DNA of 64,000 nucleotides from Arcticibacter pallidicorallinus (GTDB lineage: Bacteria > Bacteroidota > Bacteroidia > Sphingobacteriales > Sphingobacteriaceae), in NCBI RefSeq assembly GCF_003002875.1, contig NZ_PVTH01000002.1:372001-436000 (forward strand), in the 5' to 3' direction. Within the stretch, counting starts at the first letter, position 1. Every line of letters begins with the position of its first letter. Both the position numbers and the translations under genes were made by a program. The notes below the pieces were generated by a model. The model was not told the origin of the DNA, did no database searches, and saw only the letters and a list, made by a program, of their open reading frames with translations. This document shows positions 8,389 through 23,740 of the stretch, piece after piece.

Positions 8389-9000
8389 ATGTACAAGTCG
8401 GCAGTAAAATCTTTTTTTACCTGGTATATCGGGTTTATTTTAAGAAAGGACTTTTCTAAATTTTCTTTCAATAAGATACCTTTTGATGAGCAGCGATCCA
8501 TACTGTTGCTGGCCAATCATTTTTCCTGGTGGGATGGTTTTATGATCTTTTGGATCAACCGCCTTCATTTCAAAAAGGAATTTCATGTGATGGTTACCGA
8601 AGAAAACTACAATAAGGTTTGGTTTCTAAGGTATCTGGGGGCATTTCCAGTTAGCCGGCAGCCTAAGAAGATGATGTGGTCGCTGGAACATGCCGGCCGT
8701 CTGCTGGATGATTCGCGGAACCTGGTGCTTATCTTTCCACAGGGTAAATTGCATTCTAATCATATCAAAGAGATCGCCTTTGAAAAAGGGCTAATAAACC
8801 TCATTAACTCCTCAGCTAAGCATTTTCAGTACGTTTTCTCTGCTTCCTTCGTTGACTATTTTGAAACACGTAAGCCTGCTGTTGTAACCTATCTGCGAAG
8901 CTGGGAGGGTGCTGAGTTTGCGAGTTTACAGTTAATTAAGAGTGCCTATAATAAACACTATGAACATTCACGGCAGCAACAGTGCCAAAGAATTATATAA
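8389..9000 (+). CDS. PlsC-type acyltransferase, CruD-like
   Basis: This 203-residue membrane-associated acyltransferase has the NHxxxxD motif (H44-FSWW-D49) and an FPQG motif (in LIFPQGKLHS) of the glycerolipid acyltransferase family. By itself it could be a phospholipid acyltransferase. Here it is 3 bp upstream of a family 2 glycosyltransferase and a CruF-type carotenoid hydratase, which mirrors the CruD (carotenoid-glycoside acyltransferase) and CruC (glycosyltransferase) pair known from Chlorobaculum. I therefore infer that it acylates a carotenoid glycoside, while a lipid role remains possible. The C-terminus is short compared with PlsC of phospholipid synthesis. Confidence 0.7.
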   Translation: MYKSAVKSFFTWYIGFILRKDFSKFSFNKIPFDEQRSILLLANHFSWWDGFMIFWINRLHFKKEFHVMVTEENYNKVWFLRYLGAFPVSRQPKKMMWSLEHAGRLLDDSRNLVLIFPQGKLHSNHIKEIAFEKGLINLINSSAKHFQYVFSASFVDYFETRKPAVVTYLRSWEGAEFASLQLIKSAYNKHYEHSRQQQCQRII

Positions 9001-9003
9001 TAA

Positions 9004-10095
9004 ATGCTTGTCTTTTATGTAGTTTTCTTTTTTCTCATACTGAGGTTTGCGATTAGTCTTTTTAACTTCATTTCTAATCCTAAGCTTCCTGGTTCACCCC
9101 GGACGTATACTGATCTGGTGTCCGTTTTAATTCCCGCGCGAAACGAGGCAGGTAGAATTGGGGCATTGCTTGAATCTGTGATGGGACAGTCGTATCAAAA
9201 CCTGGAGATCCTGATCCTCGATGATCAGTCCACAGACGAGACTCTCCAAGTTTGCAATTCATACGCCAATCAAGATAAACGGATACAGGTGATAAGCGGA
9301 AAGGAGTTGCCAGATGGATGGCTTGGCAAGAACTTCGCTTGTCACCAGCTGGGACAGATAGCGAAAGGCCGTTATTTCGTTTTTATCGACGCTGATACGA
9401 GGGTAGAGGAAGGATTGTTTGATAGTGCTGTGTATAGGGTTAAACGGGGCAAGCTGGTCTTGTTAAGCCTGTTCGCCACTCAAATTATGCAAACCATAGG
9501 CGAAAGGGTGGTTGTTCCTCTGATGCATTTTGTTCTTCTTAACCTGTTGCCGTTGAGGCTGGTGAGATTGTCGCGAAATCCCTCGTTTTCCGCTGCGAGT
9601 GGTCAGTTTATGATGTTCGATGGACCAATGTATCAGATCTATCACTGGCATGCGCAGATAAGAGATAAGGTGCTCGACGATATGGAGATCGCAAAGCTGA
9701 TAAAAACGTACCAATTGCCGATGGAGACATTGCTGGCAAACGGGTTTATCAAGTGTCGTATGTACAGTGGGTTTGATGAAGCTGTAAACGGCTTTAGTAA
9801 GAACATACTAGCGGGCTTCAATATGAACGTTGCCGGCTTGATCTGCTACTTACTGCTGGTAATGATCGGGCCGTTATTTATAGCCTATTACCTGAGCATT
9901 CCTTTGATGATGTTTGCACTGACCCTGATTCTTTTAAGCAGAGTGATGATATCTCTGATGAGCGGACAAAACGTTATTTGGAATCTTATTTTGCATCCCG
10001 TTCAAATGGTCACTTTAGCTTTAATTTCAGTTGTTTCAATAGTCAGACATTTAACTCAAAAGACCACGTGGAAAGGGCGTGCTATAAAATCATGA
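9004..10095 (+). CDS. Family 2 glycosyltransferase, CruC/CruG-like (carotenoid)
   Basis: This 363-residue protein has an N-terminal membrane segment (about 2-20), a GT2 domain (about 38-260) starting with SVLIPARNEAG and carrying the DAD metal motif in FVFIDADTR, and two or three C-terminal membrane segments (about 275-345). This membrane-flanked GT2 layout is that of carotenoid glucosyltransferases such as CruC and CruG. It overlaps the following CruF gene by 4 bp (ATGA) and follows an acyltransferase by 3 bp, so the three are translationally coupled. I infer that it glycosylates the tertiary hydroxyl made by CruF. The sugar donor is unknown. Confidence 0.75.
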   Translation: MLVFYVVFFFLILRFAISLFNFISNPKLPGSPRTYTDLVSVLIPARNEAGRIGALLESVMGQSYQNLEILILDDQSTDETLQVCNSYANQDKRIQVISGKELPDGWLGKNFACHQLGQIAKGRYFVFIDADTRVEEGLFDSAVYRVKRGKLVLLSLFATQIMQTIGERVVVPLMHFVLLNLLPLRLVRLSRNPSFSAASGQFMMFDGPMYQIYHWHAQIRDKVLDDMEIAKLIKTYQLPMETLLANGFIKCRMYSGFDEAVNGFSKNILAGFNMNVAGLICYLLLVMIGPLFIAYYLSIPLMMFALTLILLSRVMISLMSGQNVIWNLILHPVQMVTLALISVVSIVRHLTQKTTWKGRAIKS

Positions 10096-10724
10096 TCATA
10101 AGATATAAAACTTGTTCTTCGCTTATTGTGCTTTTCTACAGTGTTGGGCTGCTTGGCTTTTTGTATCCACCTGCGGTGCCCTTATTTAAGCAGCTCGTGC
10201 CGTTTCACCTCTTGCTGATGACCGGTTTGCTGATAGCCAATCAGCACGTCAGAAATCAGTCATTCTGGTTGTTCCTTGGCGTAGCTTATGTGGCTGGCTT
10301 CCTGATTGAAATGGTGGGTACACAAACCGGAATGGTCTTTGGGAGCTATTTTTATGGAGAAACTCTTGGTTATAAGATTTTCAATACGCCGCTTATGATA
10401 GGAGTAAACTGGTTCCTGGTTATCTATTCTGTTGGGATGGCCTTGTCAGAACTGAAGGTGGAGAATGTCTACGCATTTATTCTTTTGGGTGCATCATCTG
10501 TTACCTTACTGGATTTTTTTATTGAGCCTGTCGCTATGAAATTTGACTATTGGGACTGGGCAGGTGGGGTAGTACCCGTGCAGAACTATGTCGTATGGTT
10601 CATTTTTTCTGCGCTGTTGCTGTTGGTATTTTATAAATCTTATTTCCCCAAAATCAGTAGTTCTGCTGCGGTTTTGTTCGTCGTACAGTTTTTGTTCTTC
10701 CTTATTCTTTATTTGAATGTATAG
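10092..10724 (+). CDS. cruF: CruF-family carotenoid 1',2'-hydratase
   Basis: This integral membrane protein has 210 residues and about seven hydrophobic segments. It shows the carotenoid-biosynthesis family pattern (Caroten_synth type): GFLIEMVGTQTGMVFGSYFYGETLG, then FNTPLMIGVNWF, LLDFFIEPVAMKFDYWDW and PVQNYVVWF, with conserved Glu and Asp residues in membrane helices. CruF hydrates the open psi-end of gamma-carotene or lycopene, giving a 1'-hydroxyl. The ATG at 10092 overlaps the stop of the glycosyltransferase gene; an open frame extends further upstream but lacks family likeness. It is the strongest clue that the preceding two genes act on carotenoids. Confidence 0.85.
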   Translation: MIIRYKTCSSLIVLFYSVGLLGFLYPPAVPLFKQLVPFHLLLMTGLLIANQHVRNQSFWLFLGVAYVAGFLIEMVGTQTGMVFGSYFYGETLGYKIFNTPLMIGVNWFLVIYSVGMALSELKVENVYAFILLGASSVTLLDFFIEPVAMKFDYWDWAGGVVPVQNYVVWFIFSALLLLVFYKSYFPKISSSAAVLFVVQFLFFLILYLNV

Positions 10725-10775
10725 CTGTCTGTTTAGGAGCTGATAATTATGCAGTTTCAAACGGAAACATTTTGC

Positions 10776-10783
10776 TATTTTTG
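10776..10783 (+). promoter_or_regulatory. -7 element of the ispH promoter
   Basis: TATTTTTG matches TAnnTTTG and lies 12 bp before the ispH ATG. A TTTC at 10755-10758, 17 nt upstream, may be a weak -33 box. Confidence 0.45.
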
Positions 10784-10795
10784 CGTTAAGTTATT

Positions 10796-11644
10796 ATGAG
10801 CTACAATCTACAGGTGACAATAGACGGAAATTCGGGGTTCTGCTTTGGAGTGGTTTACGCCATTGATATGGCGGAGGAAATATTGGAGGAGGACGGATAT
10901 CTGTACTGCCTTGGAGATATAGTGCATAATGATGAAGAGGTTGAGCGCTTAAAAGCACGTGGCTTAAGGATTATCAGCCACGACGAGCTTCCGGATCTTC
11001 ATGGTGAGAAAGTGCTCATACGGGCACATGGAGAGGCCCCTGAAACTTATCGAATTGCCTTAAAAAACAACATTACCCTGATAGATGCTTCATGTCCTGT
11101 CGTTCTCAAGCTTCAGAATAGAATTAAAGTGTCTCATGAAGACGAAGAACCTATCCTTATTTTTGGTAAGCACGGGCATGCGGAAGTCATCGGTCTTCAG
11201 GGCCAGACCAATAATGAGGCCCTGGTTTTTCAGGACCTTAGCGAACTTGATCATGTCGATCTTCCCTCGAAGTTTACACTCTATAGCCAGACGACAAAAA
11301 GCACTGAGAAGTTTTATCAAATTAAAGATGAACTGATTCAACGGGGTTACGAGGTAAAGGCCAACGATACTATATGCCGGCAGGTCTCTAACAGGAATGA
11401 GGATCTCGAAAGCTTTGTTACGAACTTTGACAAGATCGTTTTCGTTTCTGGTAGAAAATCGTCAAACGGCAAAGTTCTCTACGAAGTTTGTAAGAAATAC
11501 AACCCCAATACCTATTTTATATCTCAGGCAGATGAGCTTGATATTAACCTTTTTAGTCCGAATGACCGGGTCGGAATCTGTGGTGCTACCTCTACGCCGA
11601 TGTGGCTAATGGAAAAGGTCAAAGCTGTGCTCGAAAATTTCTAA
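10796..11644 (+). CDS. ispH: 4-hydroxy-3-methylbut-2-enyl diphosphate reductase
   Basis: IspH is the last enzyme of the methylerythritol phosphate pathway and makes IPP and DMAPP. The 282-residue product has the three cluster-binding cysteines C16 (GFCFG), C100 (DASCP) and C194 (TICRQVSNR), together with the conserved histidines H44, H78 and the GKHGHAE segment, and the STE/TKS region near 166-171. It needs a [4Fe-4S] cluster and works in the cytoplasm. It stands between carotenoid-tailoring genes and is followed after about 12 bp by crtW, so precursor supply and pigment modification are linked. Confidence 0.95.
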   Translation: MSYNLQVTIDGNSGFCFGVVYAIDMAEEILEEDGYLYCLGDIVHNDEEVERLKARGLRIISHDELPDLHGEKVLIRAHGEAPETYRIALKNNITLIDASCPVVLKLQNRIKVSHEDEEPILIFGKHGHAEVIGLQGQTNNEALVFQDLSELDHVDLPSKFTLYSQTTKSTEKFYQIKDELIQRGYEVKANDTICRQVSNRNEDLESFVTNFDKIVFVSGRKSSNGKVLYEVCKKYNPNTYFISQADELDINLFSPNDRVGICGATSTPMWLMEKVKAVLENF

Positions 11645-11656
11645 TTGTCAATTTCC

Positions 11657-12325
11657 ATGAGAAAGGCATCTAATATCGGTATACTGGTTGCTTTAGTTGT
11701 CATCTCTTGCTGGGCATTCAGTCTTGTCTGGCTGCTTCGTTGGGATTTCCAGTGGAACAACCCCCTCGTGTATATTATGATTCTGGTGCAGACGCATCTA
11801 TATACAGGTCTTTTTATTACGGCGCATGATGCTATGCACGGTACTGTGTCTTCCTCAAGTAAATTTAATCTCATAATAGGGCAAGTTTGCACGGCCCTGT
11901 ATGCCGCTTTTTCTTTCAAAAAGCTGATGGTCAAACACCATCAACATCATCGGCATGTACACTCAGATCTTGATCCGGATTATCATGAAGGTCCTTTTAT
12001 AGTCTGGTATTTTCACTTTATGAAGGAGTATATGTCTGTCCTTCAGTTAGTGCTGATGGCAGTATTGTTTAACGTGTTAACCCTTTGGTTTTCAGAAGGC
12101 AATATTCTGCTGTTTTGGGTCGTTCCTGCTTTGCTCAGCACCCTTCAGCTCTTCTTTTTTGGTACATGGCTTCCCCACCACGGAGAGCATCAGAATGTTC
12201 ATCACTCACGAAGTCTGAAGAAAAATCATCTTGTTGGATTCTTTTCATGCTATTTCTTTGGATATCATTATGAGCATCATGAGTTTCCGGGGACTCCCTG
12301 GTGGAAGCTCTGGCGAATGAAATAG
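11657..12325 (+). CDS. crtW: Beta-carotene ketolase, CrtW type
   Basis: This 222-residue membrane protein of the fatty-acid desaturase/hydroxylase superfamily introduces a 4-keto group on beta-ionone rings. The di-iron histidine clusters are all present: HDAMH (H57, H61), HHQHHRH (H94-H100), WLPHH (H174, H175) and HYEHHEFPGTPWW (H204, H207, H208). The GTWLPH and PGTPWWKL wording is close to CrtW ketolases rather than lipid desaturases. An earlier TTG at 11645 is possible, but the ATG at 11657 is preferred. It follows ispH by 12 bp. No CrtZ hydroxylase is seen in the window. Confidence 0.85.
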   Translation: MRKASNIGILVALVVISCWAFSLVWLLRWDFQWNNPLVYIMILVQTHLYTGLFITAHDAMHGTVSSSSKFNLIIGQVCTALYAAFSFKKLMVKHHQHHRHVHSDLDPDYHEGPFIVWYFHFMKEYMSVLQLVLMAVLFNVLTLWFSEGNILLFWVVPALLSTLQLFFFGTWLPHHGEHQNVHHSRSLKKNHLVGFFSCYFFGYHYEHHEFPGTPWWKLWRMK

Positions 12326-12340
12326 CTAAGCTAAATCGGC

Positions 12341-12348
12341 TATATTTG
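12341..12348 (+). promoter_or_regulatory. -7 element of the hemH promoter
   Basis: TATATTTG is a full match to the Bacteroidota -7 consensus and lies 10 bp before the hemH ATG. No clear -33 element is seen. Confidence 0.4.
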
Positions 12349-12358
12349 CAATCAATTT

Positions 12359-13378
12359 ATGAGCAAGCAAGGTGTTTTATTAGTAAACCTCGGGACGCCG
12401 GACAGTCCCTCTGTTAAGGATGTGAGACGGTATCTGGACGAATTTCTGATGGATGAACGGGTGATTGATATCAGTCAGCTTGGACGGACACTGTTAGTTA
12501 AAGGAATAATCGTGCCATTCAGGGGACCTAAATCAGCTAAGACGTATCAAAAGATATGGACAGATAAAGGATCGCCACTGATGTATTACAGTGAAATCAT
12601 GCGAGACGAACTGCAGAACCGACTTGGTGGCGGTTATCAGGTGGAGCTCGGCATGCGCTATCAAAACCCTTCTATTGAGTCGGCTCTTAATAAGCTTAAA
12701 GAAGGCGGGGTAAAAAATATTCGGGTAATCGCATTGTTTCCTCAGTATGCCTCAGCAACCACGGGCTCCGTTCACCAAAAAGTGATGGAGATCGTAAGTA
12801 AGTGGCAGGCGATTCCTGATATCTCATTTATTAATTCCTTTCATAACGATCCGGATATGATCAGTGTTTTTGCTGAAAATGGCAGGAAACATGATCTGGA
12901 AACATATGATCATTACCTTTTCAGTTTTCACGGTTTACCACAACGCCAGCTGATTAAAGGTGATGACTCCAAAAAACACTGTTTGCAGTCTTCCGATTGC
13001 TGTTCAGTTCTTACCGATACAAATAAATTTTGTTACTCAGCACAGTGTCATGATACTGCACGCCTTATAGCTGAGAGTCTAAACATCCCCAGAGATAAGT
13101 ACACGGTGACTTTCCAGTCGCGGTTAGGCAAGGAGCCTTGGGCGCAACCTTACACTAGTGAAGTTGTTCATAATCTTGCCAAAAATGGGACCAAGCGTCT
13201 ATTGGTCTTCAGTCCGGCGTTTGTAGCAGACTGTCTGGAAACCATCTACGAGATTGCAGAAGAATATGACCTTGAATTTAAGGAGCTTGGTGGAGAGAAA
13301 GTTCAGCTTGTCGAGAGTTTGAATACTCATCCTGTTTGGATCGGAGTTCTTGAAAAGCTGGCGACGCAGACGGTTTAA
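12359..13378 (+). CDS. hemH: Ferrochelatase
   Basis: HemH inserts ferrous iron into protoporphyrin IX to make protoheme. The 339-residue product has LVNLGTPDSP at 8-17, the catalytic histidine H191 in SFHGLPQRQ, the TFQSRLGKEPWAQPYT block at 251-266 and E294 in CLETIYEI. A cysteine-rich insert (C208, C214, C215, C225, C230) follows the catalytic histidine; similar inserts occur in other bacterial ferrochelatases, some of which hold a [2Fe-2S] cluster, but whether this one does is unknown. It is convergent with waaA, with only 11 bp between the stop codons. Confidence 0.94.
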   Translation: MSKQGVLLVNLGTPDSPSVKDVRRYLDEFLMDERVIDISQLGRTLLVKGIIVPFRGPKSAKTYQKIWTDKGSPLMYYSEIMRDELQNRLGGGYQVELGMRYQNPSIESALNKLKEGGVKNIRVIALFPQYASATTGSVHQKVMEIVSKWQAIPDISFINSFHNDPDMISVFAENGRKHDLETYDHYLFSFHGLPQRQLIKGDDSKKHCLQSSDCCSVLTDTNKFCYSAQCHDTARLIAESLNIPRDKYTVTFQSRLGKEPWAQPYTSEVVHNLAKNGTKRLLVFSPAFVADCLETIYEIAEEYDLEFKELGGEKVQLVESLNTHPVWIGVLEKLATQTV

Positions 13379-18404: not shown

Positions 18405-19883
18405 CTATAATCGCAAAACCTTCATTGCTTCCTCTGCAGCTACTTGCCCCGATATAATGGCTGGAGGGACGCCCGGTCCGGGGATAGTTAGCTGGCCGGC
18501 GTAAAACAAGTTCTTAACCTTTCTGGAGCGTAGCTTCGGCTTAAGAAAAGCCGTCTGCAAGAGCGTGTTTGCCAGTCCGTAGGCATTGCCTTTAAAAGAA
18601 TGATAGTCCTCGACGAAGTCCTTTATAGCATAGCTTCTCTTCACAACGACCGCGTCTTTGATTGTTTCGCCGGTCACCGTTTCAAACCTGTCGACAAGAA
18701 GTTTAAAATAGCGCTCTCTGATTTCCTCTGTGTCTTCCAGTCCGGGAGCTACCGGAATCAGGAAGAACAGGTTCTCTCCGCCTTCAGGAGCAACCGAGGG
18801 ATCTGTTTTCGATGCACAGCATACGTAAAAGAGGGGTTTTTCAGGCCATTGAGGTCTGTTATAGATCTCATCGGAGTGTTTATTGAAATCCTCGTCAAAG
18901 AAAAGACTGTGATGTGGAATGTCTTTCAGTTTCTTATTGATTCCGATGTAAAACAATAACGAAGAGGGGGAGAGTGTTCGAGTGTTCCAGTAGGCAGAGC
19001 TATAACCGCGATATTGGCTTTCAAGCAAAACCTGATCGGTATGATGATAGTCAGCGTTGGAGATGATTAGATCAGCAGGGATAAAACCAGAATCTGTTTC
19101 CAGTCCACTGGCTATTCCATTCGATACCCTAATCTTCCTAACCTCCGTGTTCAGGCGGAACTTCACCCCCTGTTCATGGGCAATCGAAACCATAGCCTTC
19201 ACAATTTCATTCATTCCGCCCATCGGATACCATGTTCCGAGTGCCAGATCTGCATAATTCATAAGGCTGTAGAGTGCCGGAGTGGTCGCGGCAGTCCCTC
19301 CCAGAAATAGCACCGGAAATTCGAGGATCTCGATGATTTTGGGGTGCTTGAAATACGATCTGGCATGGTTCCGCAGACTCGTAAAGAGCTGCAGGCGGAA
19401 GCTTGCACTGATGAGCTTAAGATCGATATACTCTGTTATGGAGTGAGATGGTCGAAATACAAAATCACCCATGCCTGTTTGGTACTTGTATTCGGCCTGC
19501 TTAAGAAAGTTATCCAAGCCCTCAGAAGCACCAGGCTCAAGCTCTTCAAACAGTTGCTTCAGCTTTGACATATGGGCGGGAACGTCGGTAAAGTCATTCG
19601 CCCCCCAGTAAACACGATACGAGGGGTCAAGCCTTTTCAGCTCATAAAAGTCTGAACTTTTCTTGCCGAATAAGTGGAAGAAGTTCTCAAATACATCAGG
19701 CATCCAGTACCAGCTTGGCCCCATGTCGAAGCGGAAACCATCTTTCGACCATACTCTTGCTCTGCCACCAGCCTGGTCATTTTTCTCATAAACAGTTACA
19801 TCATACCCCGCTTTAGCGAGAATAGACGCTGCTGACAGGCCCGCAAAGCCGGAACCAATAATAGCTACTGAAGATGTATTCAT
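18405..19883 (-). CDS. crtI: Phytoene desaturase
   Basis: This 492-residue FAD-dependent enzyme desaturates phytoene to lycopene or neurosporene at the membrane. The dinucleotide-binding motif G10-S-G12-FA-G15 is followed by YEKNDQAGGRA and FDMGPSWYWMPDVF, and the C-terminal FAD segment NLFYAGQLTIPGPGVPPAIISG is characteristic of CrtI. It is transcribed divergently from crtB, with about 73 bp between the start codons, so the two core genes probably share a control region. Similar CrtD-type desaturases exist, but the position next to crtB supports CrtI. Confidence 0.93.
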   Translation of the reverse strand: MNTSSVAIIGSGFAGLSAASILAKAGYDVTVYEKNDQAGGRARVWSKDGFRFDMGPSWYWMPDVFENFFHLFGKKSSDFYELKRLDPSYRVYWGANDFTDVPAHMSKLKQLFEELEPGASEGLDNFLKQAEYKYQTGMGDFVFRPSHSITEYIDLKLISASFRLQLFTSLRNHARSYFKHPKIIEILEFPVLFLGGTAATTPALYSLMNYADLALGTWYPMGGMNEIVKAMVSIAHEQGVKFRLNTEVRKIRVSNGIASGLETDSGFIPADLIISNADYHHTDQVLLESQYRGYSSAYWNTRTLSPSSLLFYIGINKKLKDIPHHSLFFDEDFNKHSDEIYNRPQWPEKPLFYVCCASKTDPSVAPEGGENLFFLIPVAPGLEDTEEIRERYFKLLVDRFETVTGETIKDAVVVKRSYAIKDFVEDYHSFKGNAYGLANTLLQTAFLKPKLRSRKVKNLFYAGQLTIPGPGVPPAIISGQVAAEEAMKVLRL

Positions 19884-19956
19884 ATAACGGTAAATGTAAC
19901 CTCAAAAACTTTTAAAGCAAAATTTCGTATTATTGGTAAATGAGGCACTACATTTT

Positions 19957-20793
19957 ATGATGGATTTGTATAATTACTCGTGTTTTGAGTGCAGTAAGCT
20001 CATCACAAAAACCTACAGTACCTCTTTTAGTCTTGGTATTCGCACCTTTCACAAAGATCTCCGTAACCCAATTTACGCCATCTACGGATTCGTCAGGTAC
20101 GCAGATGAGATAGTGGATACCTTTCATGAATACGATAAAGTGGAAATGATCCGCCAGTTTGGCCTGGATACCTATCAGGCTATTGAAAGGGGGGTCAGCA
20201 TCAATCCGGTGCTGCAGTCGTTTCAGCTGGTCGTAAACCAATATCAGATAGACAAGCAACTCATTCAAGCCTTTCTGCACTCCATGGAGATGGATCTGCA
20301 AAAAGTTGCTTATACCGACGAGCTGTTCAAAGAATACATTTATGGTTCAGCCGAAGTAGTAGGACTTATGTGTCTGAAGGTTTTCTGCCACGGTCAGGAA
20401 GGTCTGTATGCAACGCTTTTGCCCTCGGCCAGACGACTGGGTTCTGCATTCCAGAAGATTAATTTCCTCAGGGATATACAAGCCGATTATGAGGAGCGGG
20501 GAAGGGTGTACTTTCCGGATGTTGACTTTCTAAGGTTCAGTGAGGCCGACAAAAAGCTTATCGAGGAAGACATTCGGATAGACTTTGATGAAGGCCTTGC
20601 CGGAATACGTAAGCTGCCCCGGAAATCTCGTGCAGGTGTCTATGTTGCCTATCTTTACTATCTGGAGCTTTTCTATAAGATAAAATCAAAGTCGGCCGGT
20701 ACTCTGGCAGCCGAGCGAATCCGGGTGTCCGACAAGAGGAAAATATGGTTGCTCGGACAGGCTCTGTTTAAAGAGAAGATAATAGGTTTATGA
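19957..20793 (+). CDS. crtB: Phytoene synthase
   Basis: CrtB condenses two geranylgeranyl diphosphates to phytoene. With the ATG at 19957 the product has 278 residues and both Asp-rich metal-binding motifs: D50-EIV-D54 in YADEIVDTF and D173-IQA-D177 in LRDIQADYEERGRVYFP. A TTG at 19933 is open but adds eight unrelated residues. A near-match to the -7 consensus at 19929-19936 would put transcription start between the two. Its stop overlaps the next start (ATGA), so it leads a four-gene translationally coupled operon. Confidence 0.92.
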   Translation: MMDLYNYSCFECSKLITKTYSTSFSLGIRTFHKDLRNPIYAIYGFVRYADEIVDTFHEYDKVEMIRQFGLDTYQAIERGVSINPVLQSFQLVVNQYQIDKQLIQAFLHSMEMDLQKVAYTDELFKEYIYGSAEVVGLMCLKVFCHGQEGLYATLLPSARRLGSAFQKINFLRDIQADYEERGRVYFPDVDFLRFSEADKKLIEEDIRIDFDEGLAGIRKLPRKSRAGVYVAYLYYLELFYKIKSKSAGTLAAERIRVSDKRKIWLLGQALFKEKIIGL

Positions 20794-21302
20794 TCAAGTT
20801 TTTTTTATTGTTTCTGCTGTTTCCCCTGTCGGTCTCTTCAACAGAGCTCGATAAAGTCCGGGTGCAGTTCTATCAGGCTGTTGAGAATAAGGAAGTTGCA
20901 GGCAAATTCTTTGAGCGTATGAAGCTTGAGCAGGGAATCAGTCCGGTTCATCTAGCCTATTATGGTTCCGCCCAAACACTAATGGGGAAGCATGCCTGGA
21001 ATCCTTACCAGAAGCTCACATATCTTAAAAGTGGTATGGAGGTGCTCTCTACCGCTTCGAAGAAAGTTCCCGAGAATCTTGAAATCCGATTTCTAAGGTT
21101 CAGTATTGAACACTATCTGCCTGGATTTCTAGGCATGAGCAAGCATCTTGATGAAGATCGGAAAAAGATTGTCAGCCTGGTTCAAAAGCGCCAGTTCGGA
21201 TCGCTCCCTAAGGCTGTTCTAAAAGACATGGTCACCTTTGTTATCAAAAGCGGCAGAGCAAAGGGGGAAGAGCTGGATATCTTAAACCAATTTATGAAAT
21301 GA
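20790..21302 (+). CDS. Secreted protein of unknown function in the carotenoid operon
   Basis: This 170-residue protein has an N-terminal signal peptide (hydrophobic residues about 2-15, cleavage near SVSS/TE) and an otherwise helical, Lys-rich mature part with no cysteine pair and no recognised motif. It overlaps crtB by 4 bp upstream and the cyclase gene by 4 bp downstream, so it is made in step with the carotenoid enzymes. The helical, repeat-like make-up resembles a TPR-like scaffold, but this is only an impression. A role in carotenoid handling or enzyme assembly at the membrane is inferred from position alone. Confidence 0.75.
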   Translation: MIKFFLLFLLFPLSVSSTELDKVRVQFYQAVENKEVAGKFFERMKLEQGISPVHLAYYGSAQTLMGKHAWNPYQKLTYLKSGMEVLSTASKKVPENLEIRFLRFSIEHYLPGFLGMSKHLDEDRKKIVSLVQKRQFGSLPKAVLKDMVTFVIKSGRAKGEELDILNQFMK

Positions 21303-21982
21303 ACGAAAAATATACTTACCTGTTAATCAATTTCCTCACGGTAATATTTCCGGTTCTGTTGTCCTTTGATAAAAATGTGCATTTTTATAAGAACTGGAAA
21401 TACATCTTTCCTGCGCAGGTAATCAGCGGTTTGTGCTTTCTGCTTTGGGATTATATCTTCACTTTATATGATGTATGGTCTTTCAATAGCCGGTATGTAA
21501 CAGGGATCTATTTTCTCAATCTACCCATTGAAGAAATCCTGTTCTTCGTCACGGTACCTTTCTCTTGTATATTTATCTATGAATGCCTGAACTTTTATGT
21601 CAGGAAAGATGTTTTGGCGAAAGCCAGTCTGCCGATCACGCACGGATTGACAGCGCTTTCGGTCATTCTTCTTGTGTTTTACCACGACCGCGTCTATACC
21701 CTGATTACGTTTGGTTTGCTTCTGGCGAACTGCGTCTATGTGTATCTGAGGAAACCGGACAATATGGGTCGTTTTTACCTCGCATTTTTGGTGTCCATGT
21801 TCCCGTTCTATATCGTGAACGGAATATTGACCTCATTGCCGATCGTAATGTATAATGATGCTCAGAACATGGGTGTCAGGATATCAACAGTGCCCTTTGA
21901 AGATCATTTTTACTCCCTTTCGATGCTGCTCATTAATATCCTGCTATTCGAATACTTCCGCAGAAGGGGTAAACGCGTATGA
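21299..21982 (+). CDS. Lycopene cyclase, fused CrtYcd type
   Basis: This 227-residue integral membrane protein has six to seven hydrophobic segments and two PxE-type acidic motifs, P76-I-E78-E79 and P199-F-E201-D202. These mark the two halves of heterodimeric CrtYc/CrtYd cyclases, here fused in one chain as in archaea, Bacteroidota and the fungal CarRP N-terminus. It forms beta-ionone rings on lycopene. Whether it closes one or both ends is not visible; the CruF hydratase in the same window suggests a monocyclic product. It overlaps its neighbours on both sides by 4 bp. Confidence 0.88.
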   Translation: MNEKYTYLLINFLTVIFPVLLSFDKNVHFYKNWKYIFPAQVISGLCFLLWDYIFTLYDVWSFNSRYVTGIYFLNLPIEEILFFVTVPFSCIFIYECLNFYVRKDVLAKASLPITHGLTALSVILLVFYHDRVYTLITFGLLLANCVYVYLRKPDNMGRFYLAFLVSMFPFYIVNGILTSLPIVMYNDAQNMGVRISTVPFEDHFYSLSMLLINILLFEYFRRRGKRV

Positions 21983-22224
21983 TGAATAGCGAACTGCCGC
22001 AATATACGATCGCTCAATTAGCCCTCCGAAATGGGCAAGACAAGCCGCAGATCTGGGTTGCAGTAGATGGCGTCATCTACGACGTCACGGAGAGTCGGCT
22101 TTGGCGAGATGGTAAGCATTATGAGCACTGGGCAGGGCAGGATTTAAGCGATGAGCTGGAAGATGCCCCTCATTCAAAGAGCGTATTCGCTCGGTTCGAA
22201 AAGGTGGGGAAGATTAAGCGATAG
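21979..22224 (+). CDS. Small cytochrome b5-like heme-binding domain protein
   Basis: This 81-residue single-domain protein matches the short prokaryotic cytochrome b5 pattern: WVAVDGVIYDVTESRLWRDGKHY at about 26-48, AGQDLS at 52-57 and PHS at 64-66, with H47, H50 and H65 as candidate heme ligands. There is no signal peptide or membrane segment. It is the last gene of the crtB operon, overlapping the cyclase by 4 bp. A role as redox partner for the di-iron ketolase CrtW or another pigment oxygenase is a guess from context. Confidence 0.75.
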   Translation: MMNSELPQYTIAQLALRNGQDKPQIWVAVDGVIYDVTESRLWRDGKHYEHWAGQDLSDELEDAPHSKSVFARFEKVGKIKR

Positions 22225-22242
22225 TCCCACCAGGGGACTATC
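22220..22242. terminator. Hairpin between the convergent crt operon and PfkB gene
   Basis: GATAGTCCC (22220-22228) pairs perfectly with GGGACTATC (22234-22242) around a 5-nt loop. The left arm contains the stop codon of the cytochrome b5-like gene. No long T tract follows on either strand, so it may terminate weakly or protect 3' ends. Confidence 0.5.
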
Positions 22243-22252
22243 ACTTCAAATA

Positions 22253-23173
22253 TTATGGTTCTATAACAAAGCTGCTGAGCGTAACAAACTCCTTTATGCG
22301 GCTCTCAACCTCTTGCTGAGTAAGATCTTTAATCCTTTCTGTTCCGAATTTTTCCACACAGAAAGACGCCAAAGCCGATCCGTAGATGACCGCGTTTTTC
22401 ATATTGTTGAAGTTAATAGTGCCAACTTTAGCCAGATAGCCTATAAATCCGCCCGCGAAAGTATCCCCCGCACCTGTTGGATCAAAAACCTCAGCTAAAG
22501 GGAGGGCTGGAGCAGAAAATACCCGCTCTGAATCAAACAGAAGTGCGCCATGCTCGCCTTTCTTAATAATCAGGTATCGCGGTCCCATCGCGATGATCTT
22601 TCTGGCAGCTTTTACCAGCGAGTACTCTCCCGATAGCTGGCGAGCCTCCGCATCGTTAATAGTCAGCACATCGACCAGCTTTAGTGTTTCCTTTAAGTCT
22701 TCCAGCGCCACATCCATCCAGAAGTTCATCGTGTCAAGAACGATCAGCTTCGGACGGTTCCGTAGCCTTTCAATAGTGGCCTTTTGTATTTGAGGGGTAA
22801 GGTTACCCAATAGAAGGTACTCACAAGTTTGGTATGATTCCGGAATGATAGGGTCGAAGTCGGCCAGTACGTTCAGCTCTGTAGCAAGTGTATCGCGACT
22901 GTTCATGTCGTTATGATACTTTCCAGCCCAGAAGAAAGATTTTTCGCCTTCCTTCACCTGCAAGCCCTCTACGTCAATCCCATGAGTGGAAAAAGTGTCA
23001 ATATCTTCTTTGTGAAAGTCGTCACCAACCACCCCAACAATCTTTACTTTATCATAAAAATATGATGCGGCGAGACTAGCGTATGTTGCTGCTCCTCCGA
23101 CGATTTTGTCTGTCTTTCCAAAAGGGGTTTCGATGGCATCGAAGGCCACCGTTCCTATAATAACTAAGCTCAT
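22253..23173 (-). CDS. PfkB-family sugar/nucleoside kinase
   Basis: This 306-residue cytoplasmic kinase belongs to the ribokinase-like family. The N-terminal GG motif appears as KIVGGAATYASLAASYF and the anion-hole/catalytic-base motif as DPTGAGDTFAGGF near residue 240. The strands around LIVLDTMNFWMD resemble the group annotated as PfkB sugar kinases close to adenosine kinase. Substrate cannot be told. It stands alone, convergent with the crt operon. Confidence 0.82.
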   Translation of the reverse strand: MSLVIIGTVAFDAIETPFGKTDKIVGGAATYASLAASYFYDKVKIVGVVGDDFHKEDIDTFSTHGIDVEGLQVKEGEKSFFWAGKYHNDMNSRDTLATELNVLADFDPIIPESYQTCEYLLLGNLTPQIQKATIERLRNRPKLIVLDTMNFWMDVALEDLKETLKLVDVLTINDAEARQLSGEYSLVKAARKIIAMGPRYLIIKKGEHGALLFDSERVFSAPALPLAEVFDPTGAGDTFAGGFIGYLAKVGTINFNNMKNAVIYGSALASFCVEKFGTERIKDLTQQEVESRIKEFVTLSSFVIEP

Positions 23174-23301: not shown

Positions 23302-23375
23302 TCCTGAGTAGCTCAGCCGGTTAGAGCATCTGACTGTTAATCAGAGGGTCGCTGGTTCGAGCCCAGCCTCAGGAG
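23302..23375 (+). tRNA. tRNA-Asn (GTT), copy 1
   Basis: The 74-nt sequence folds as a cloverleaf: acceptor TCCTGAG/CTCAGGA, D arm GCTC/GAGC, anticodon stem TCTGA/TCAGA with loop CTGTTAA (anticodon GTT), T arm GCTGG/CCAGC with loop TTCGAGC, and discriminator G. CCA is not encoded. A perfect terminator hairpin follows. Confidence 0.97.
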
Positions 23376-23377
23376 CA

Positions 23378-23661: not shown

Positions 23662-23735
23662 TCCTGAGTAGCTCAGCCGGTTAGAGCATCTGACTGTTAA
23701 TCAGAGGGTCGCTGGTTCGAGCCCAGCCTCAGGAG
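23662..23735 (+). tRNA. tRNA-Asn (GTT), copy 2
   Basis: This gene is identical to copy 1 over all 74 nt, with the same cloverleaf and GTT anticodon. It lies 360 bp downstream of copy 1 and has its own terminator. Confidence 0.97.
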
Positions 23736-23740
23736 CAAAA

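Follow-up and report, generated by a model that had tools for sequence, protein, structure and literature searches.

The window analysed here, a 64,000-nucleotide stretch of the genome of Arcticibacter pallidicorallinus, carries a small gene for a cytochrome b5-domain protein, here called b5, at the end of a run of carotenoid (crt) genes. The features that concern us are these.

11645-12325, + strand: CrtW-like ketolase gene (NF045690, E 3.4e-70; 236 bits, under the 350-bit equivalog cut-off)
18405-19883, - strand: crtI-family desaturase gene, divergent from crtB (NF058655, 757 bits; cut-off 640)
19933-20793, + strand: crtB-like gene of the phytoene/squalene synthase family (PF00494, E 4.9e-46), whose true start may lie slightly downstream
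20790-21302, + strand: hyp, encoding 170 residues that match no Pfam or NCBIfam profile
21299-21982, + strand: crtYcd-type lycopene cyclase gene, 227 residues (PF18916, E 5.3e-41; TIGR03462, E 3.3e-27)
21979-22224, + strand: b5, ATG start, an 81-residue stand-alone cytochrome b5-domain protein of the short archaeal/bacterial type
22216-22246, + strand: hairpin spanning the b5 stop codon, where b5 and pfkB converge
22253-23173, - strand: pfkB-family sugar kinase gene, also a neighbour of b5 in crt-poor relatives

The crtB, hyp, crtYcd and b5 genes are joined by three consecutive 4-bp overlaps (20790-20793, 21299-21302 and 21979-21982), with b5 as the last of the run. The hairpin at its stop codon (-17.2 kcal/mol, z -4.4, with none of 200 shuffles as good) likely marks the end of the transcript; it is absent from the output of the consensus terminator scan because it has no T run. 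The hyp protein has a hydrophobic start and belongs to a cluster with 44 loci in a comparison of 141 stretches. The CrtW-like gene, a candidate client of b5, lies about 10 kb away within a set on one strand (8389-13378) that comprises putative acyltransferase-like, glycosyltransferase-like and cruF-like reading frames followed by ispH-like, crtW and ferrochelatase genes, and that suggests a glycosylated, acylated ketocarotenoid. Beyond pfkB, two tRNA-Asn(gtt) genes (23302-23376 and 23662-23736) lie in a short tandem duplication in which flanking sequence was copied as well. Outside the window, the same genome encodes a second CrtI-family protein (G000:C2:288884-290329; 345 bits, above the family cut-off).

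An earlier note on this DNA had described an 81-residue stand-alone b5-like domain that ends the crtB operon, and both parts of that description hold: the position of the gene is as given above, and residues 12-78 of the protein match the Pfam profile PF00173 (Cyt-b5) with an E-value of 1.5e-8 and a score of 35 bits, against a curated cut-off of 23.7. It is the sole PF00173 match in its own 4.12 Mb genome. The solved Cyt-b5 proteins nearest to it in sequence are 6vz6 (E 2.6e-14) and 6nzx (E 6.4e-12). A structure model built from 28 relatives (mean pLDDT 77.9, lowest at about residues 41-50) was compared with known structures by VIA-align and gave Z 9.9 with 6nzx (73 residues, 2.2 Å rmsd), Z 9.8 with 6vz6 and Z 8.5 with the PGRMC1 domain 4x8y; the matches shown, from Z 9.9 downwards, are all Cyt-b5 domains. 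The protein is also strongly conserved: across the first 30 relatives its identity is 64-84%, versus 28-60% for the adjacent crtY and 30-42% for hyp.

The closest known systems are the proteins of a Hadesarchaea member (6nzx) and of Methanococcoides burtonii (6vz6), which like b5 are short and stand-alone (chains of 78 residues), are 34-37% identical to it in structural alignment, and share its GxH element, a His near AG/GG, and APH. They differ in that the H47-H50 spacing is one residue shorter in b5, which also has an HYEHWAG block and, in its own family, a crt cassette beside it. Plasmid-borne cytochrome b5 domain proteins of Firmicutes are similar in size and 32-46% identical, though from another phylum. 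Classical cytochrome b5 proteins (3ner, 1cyo and the E. vacuolata b558 1cxy) share the fold, but b5 lacks their HPGG motif: in the alignment to 3ner, human type B cytochrome b5, the residues R43-D44-G45-K46 occupy that place, and R43 falls where the first axial His would be. The second axial His of 3ner, in contrast, aligns with H65.

Four residues stand out around the putative heme site. H47, Y48, H50 and H65 do not vary in any of the 28 relatives aligned, including those of genomes without CrtI, and in a larger set of 152 sequences, whose selection pattern itself required H47 and H50 and which therefore tests the other two only, Y48 and H65 are each conserved in every member. These patterns make heme binding likely, with the predicted ligands among H47, Y48, H50 and H65. 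In the alignment Y48, with His residues flanking it, also pairs with the Tyr of 1t0g, a plant MAPR-like protein, and MAPR proteins (PGRMC1 4x8y; plant 1t0g and 1j03) have the same fold. PMC4802085 describes the heme of PGRMC1 as bound through Tyr113. On these grounds b5 could resemble the MAPR proteins in function, as a sensor of heme, a chaperone or a scaffold, and not carry electrons at all. It differs from them, however, in keeping H65 at the place of the classical second axial ligand, in having two further His residues near the heme site and in a total length of 81 residues, and we consider such a role quite improbable.

The coupling of b5 to the lycopene cyclase gene, also asserted by the earlier note, is operon-like and recurs across the family. 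Distances could be drawn from 150 listed b5 genomes and 147 listed cyclase genomes of the order sample, 97 of them in both lists; in these 97, crtY lies less than 500 bp from b5 in 60, 500-3000 bp away in 21 and elsewhere in 16, so that the two genes are within 3 kb of each other in 81. The junction itself was measured at the 90 stored loci where crtY is near b5, with some genomes contributing more than one locus and the start nearest to -4 being picked each time: it is -4 bp in 28, -1 in 25, -8 in 12 and -17 in 6. An overlap of 1 to 17 bp in 71 of the 90 suggests that selection keeps crtY and b5 coupled. Among the titles and opening lines of abstracts retrieved from the literature, we found no matching report of a crt operon that contains a b5 gene, and PMC11282960 offered nothing of use.

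This linkage was seen in one family only, and even there the position of b5 is kept with or without the carotenoid genes. At least one of crtY, crtB and crtI is present in the stretch at 59 of 80 named loci. At 20 mostly crt-less family loci, by comparison, genes that we take from the starts of their sequences to be murB and a sigma factor gene, together with pfkB, are present in all 20, and a crt gene occurs in two, cyclase-like in both cases. A block of murB, ECF sigma, b5 and pfkB is kept in Sphingobacteriaceae (L032-L051 and many of L082-L161), and in other genomes the crt cassette sits between sigma and b5. In some relatives without CrtW (L011, L012, L014, L015, L020, L025, L050 and L051), a diverged cyclase-like gene, with 28-33% identity to the crtYcd of the window, overlaps or abuts b5 on its upstream side. 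What we take to be the PxEE and second-domain motifs are altered in several of these genes, in a comparison where the L112 and L016 rows are wrong reading frames and the L024 row is partial. Four genomes with the diverged cyclase (G014, G135, G152 and G215) have no CrtI at 1e-60. The gene may code for a membrane protein that has taken on a new role next to b5, or may be a decaying relic.

Across the order sample of 250 genomes, b5 is present in 228 and the cyclase family in 209, where two of the 22 genomes without b5 (G211 and G226) and 21 of those without the cyclase were deduced from their absence in the tables. Both genes occur in 191 genomes, b5 only in 37, the cyclase only in 18 and neither in 4. 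Because it is lost from 22 of the 250, b5 is not essential. CrtI is missing over its cut-off from 23 of the 37 b5 genomes without PF18916, and at 1e-60 from 7 of 27 further b5 genomes, so that at least 30 of the 64 b5 genomes tested lack it; conversely, 19 of the 22 order genomes without b5 do have CrtI. In other families no crtY, crtB or crtI was found near b5 at any of 40 loci, and pfkB was found at 3. The locus counts given here and above take genes anywhere in the stretch and hence include 14 loci where b5 was not located in the neighbourhood view (L106, L115, L118, L138, L140, L148, L160, L165, L168, L173, L179, L192, L193 and L197). The neighbours in those families presumably include aspartate-semialdehyde-dehydrogenase-like, MurQ-like, sugar-kinase-like and two-component genes, judging by the starts of their sequences. 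No redox theme runs through them, and we dropped them as a clue to the role of b5.

Little is known of what supplies electrons to di-iron carotenoid oxygenases in bacteria; the earlier note stated as much, and the literature consulted does not contradict it. That note had gone on to propose that b5 is a dedicated redox partner of the pathway, which would reduce the di-iron ketolase CrtW and serve nothing else. The relationship between the two genes was therefore counted, with CrtW scored at E <= 1e-30 since the 350-bit equivalog cut-off was reached by no hit. Part of the expected association was found: every one of the 115 order-sample genomes with CrtW carries b5, as do 37 of the 51 with CrtW in the class sample, and this adds to the position of b5 in the crtB-crtY run. 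Other counts go against the proposal. In the order sample 113 of the 228 b5 genomes have no CrtW, and a further 22 genomes have neither gene; 14 of the 51 class-sample CrtW genomes have no PF00173 match in a profile search, among them G332 and G484, both listed as 100% complete. With these presence and absence data, the b5 genomes that lack CrtI and the crt-free loci of other families, we reject an exclusive carotenoid role, to which we would give only a very slight chance. For comparison, di-iron carotene hydroxylases are described in PMC2288588 as needing ferredoxin and a ferredoxin reductase.

A less exclusive tie to the ketolase deserves more weight. Under this reading b5 is a general donor on which CrtW has come to depend in these lineages, among several clients, and genomes can lose b5 only if they have no CrtW. 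The order counts fit such a dependence. In the class sample (n=395), b5 occurs in 92 genomes and CrtW in 51, with both in 37, CrtW only in 14, b5 only in 55 and neither in 289; the rate of b5 is thus 37 of 51 in CrtW genomes versus 55 of 344 in the others, an odds ratio of 13.9. By family labels, from which we read 23 families with b5, 12 with CrtW, 32 with an SCS7-like protein and about 76 in total, b5 is found in 9 of 12 CrtW families and in 14 of the other 64 or so (Fisher p 0.0007, where Fisher values take genomes or families as independent, which related lineages are not). Against this, 17 of the 22 order genomes without b5 belong to the single genus g2, which has no CrtW (the g2 list used for these statistics omitted G211 and G226, placed in g2 by another table), and variation in both genes is confined to genera g3 and g5, with one b5 loss each. 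Seven of the 14 class-sample CrtW genomes without b5 are likewise from one genus, and four of the 14 fall within the b5-bearing families f2, f17, f50 and f68. The crtW gene is also distant from b5: among 82 genomes with both places listed, it is on a different contig in 57 and within 11 kb in only two (G000 and G040, at 10-11 kb, both of the window's own genus), with the other 23 same-contig cases at 26 kb or more. Bacterial CrtW enzymes work in E. coli, and E. coli is among the 14 control genomes, of which only Methanosarcina acetivorans has a PF00173 match. The co-occurrence is largely a matter of lineage structure; it nevertheless suggests a tie to the ketolase closer than one would expect of a gene with a purely housekeeping role. 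We regard the dependence of CrtW on b5 as unlikely but worth keeping in view.

Membrane lipid enzymes are another set of potential acceptors, as eukaryotic kin of SCS7-type ceramide fatty-acid hydroxylases and of acyl desaturases carry fused b5 domains. Beside CrtW, the genome encodes two PF00487 desaturase-like and two PF04116 proteins as candidate clients. One of the latter, encoded outside the window (L207:1465-2109), is a homologue of the SCS7-type hydroxylase (PDB SCS7, E 5.3e-29) and has no b5 domain of its own. The distribution of b5, however, is indifferent to that enzyme: in a control sample of 345 genomes, 116 with an SCS7-like protein and a deduced 77 with b5, b5 is present in 29 of the 116 versus 48 of the 229 others (odds ratio 1.26, against 13.9 for CrtW), and genes of this kind were not recognised next to b5 in the neighbourhoods viewed. 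The SCS7-type hydroxylase was dropped as the explaining partner for want of association, and we judge it improbable that donation to lipid enzymes, desaturases included, accounts for b5.

The reading that we prefer, with somewhat better than even confidence, is that b5 serves several clients as a general, heme-based electron carrier and is not a dedicated partner of the pigment pathway. It would be a small soluble protein, most likely binding heme b, that shuttles electrons one at a time between a general reductase and two or more acceptors. The gene would be an old one in Sphingobacteriaceae and neighbouring Bacteroidota, fixed in the family between the ECF sigma gene and pfkB. Since the cassette of crtI, crtB, hyp and crtY stands at the same place in many genomes, b5 is probably co-transcribed with it, and CrtW may be one client without being the reason for the existence of b5.

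A bolder version of the CrtW tie makes this free-standing b5, with its mixture of classical and MAPR features, the actual electron donor to CrtW in Sphingobacteriaceae and in several further families of Bacteroidota, alongside its other clients. We think that unlikely. If true, a donor to a di-iron carotenoid ketolase of bacteria would have been identified genetically, and the linkage to crtY would be a trace left by co-regulation; it would also explain both the co-occurrence throughout the CrtW genomes of the order and the loss of b5 only where CrtW is absent. As matters stand, b5 belongs to a familiar type of small heme protein and occupies this neighbourhood whether carotenoid genes are there or not. 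Operon position can thus mislead, as a strongly conserved gene in the carotenoid operon of one family outlives the pathway.
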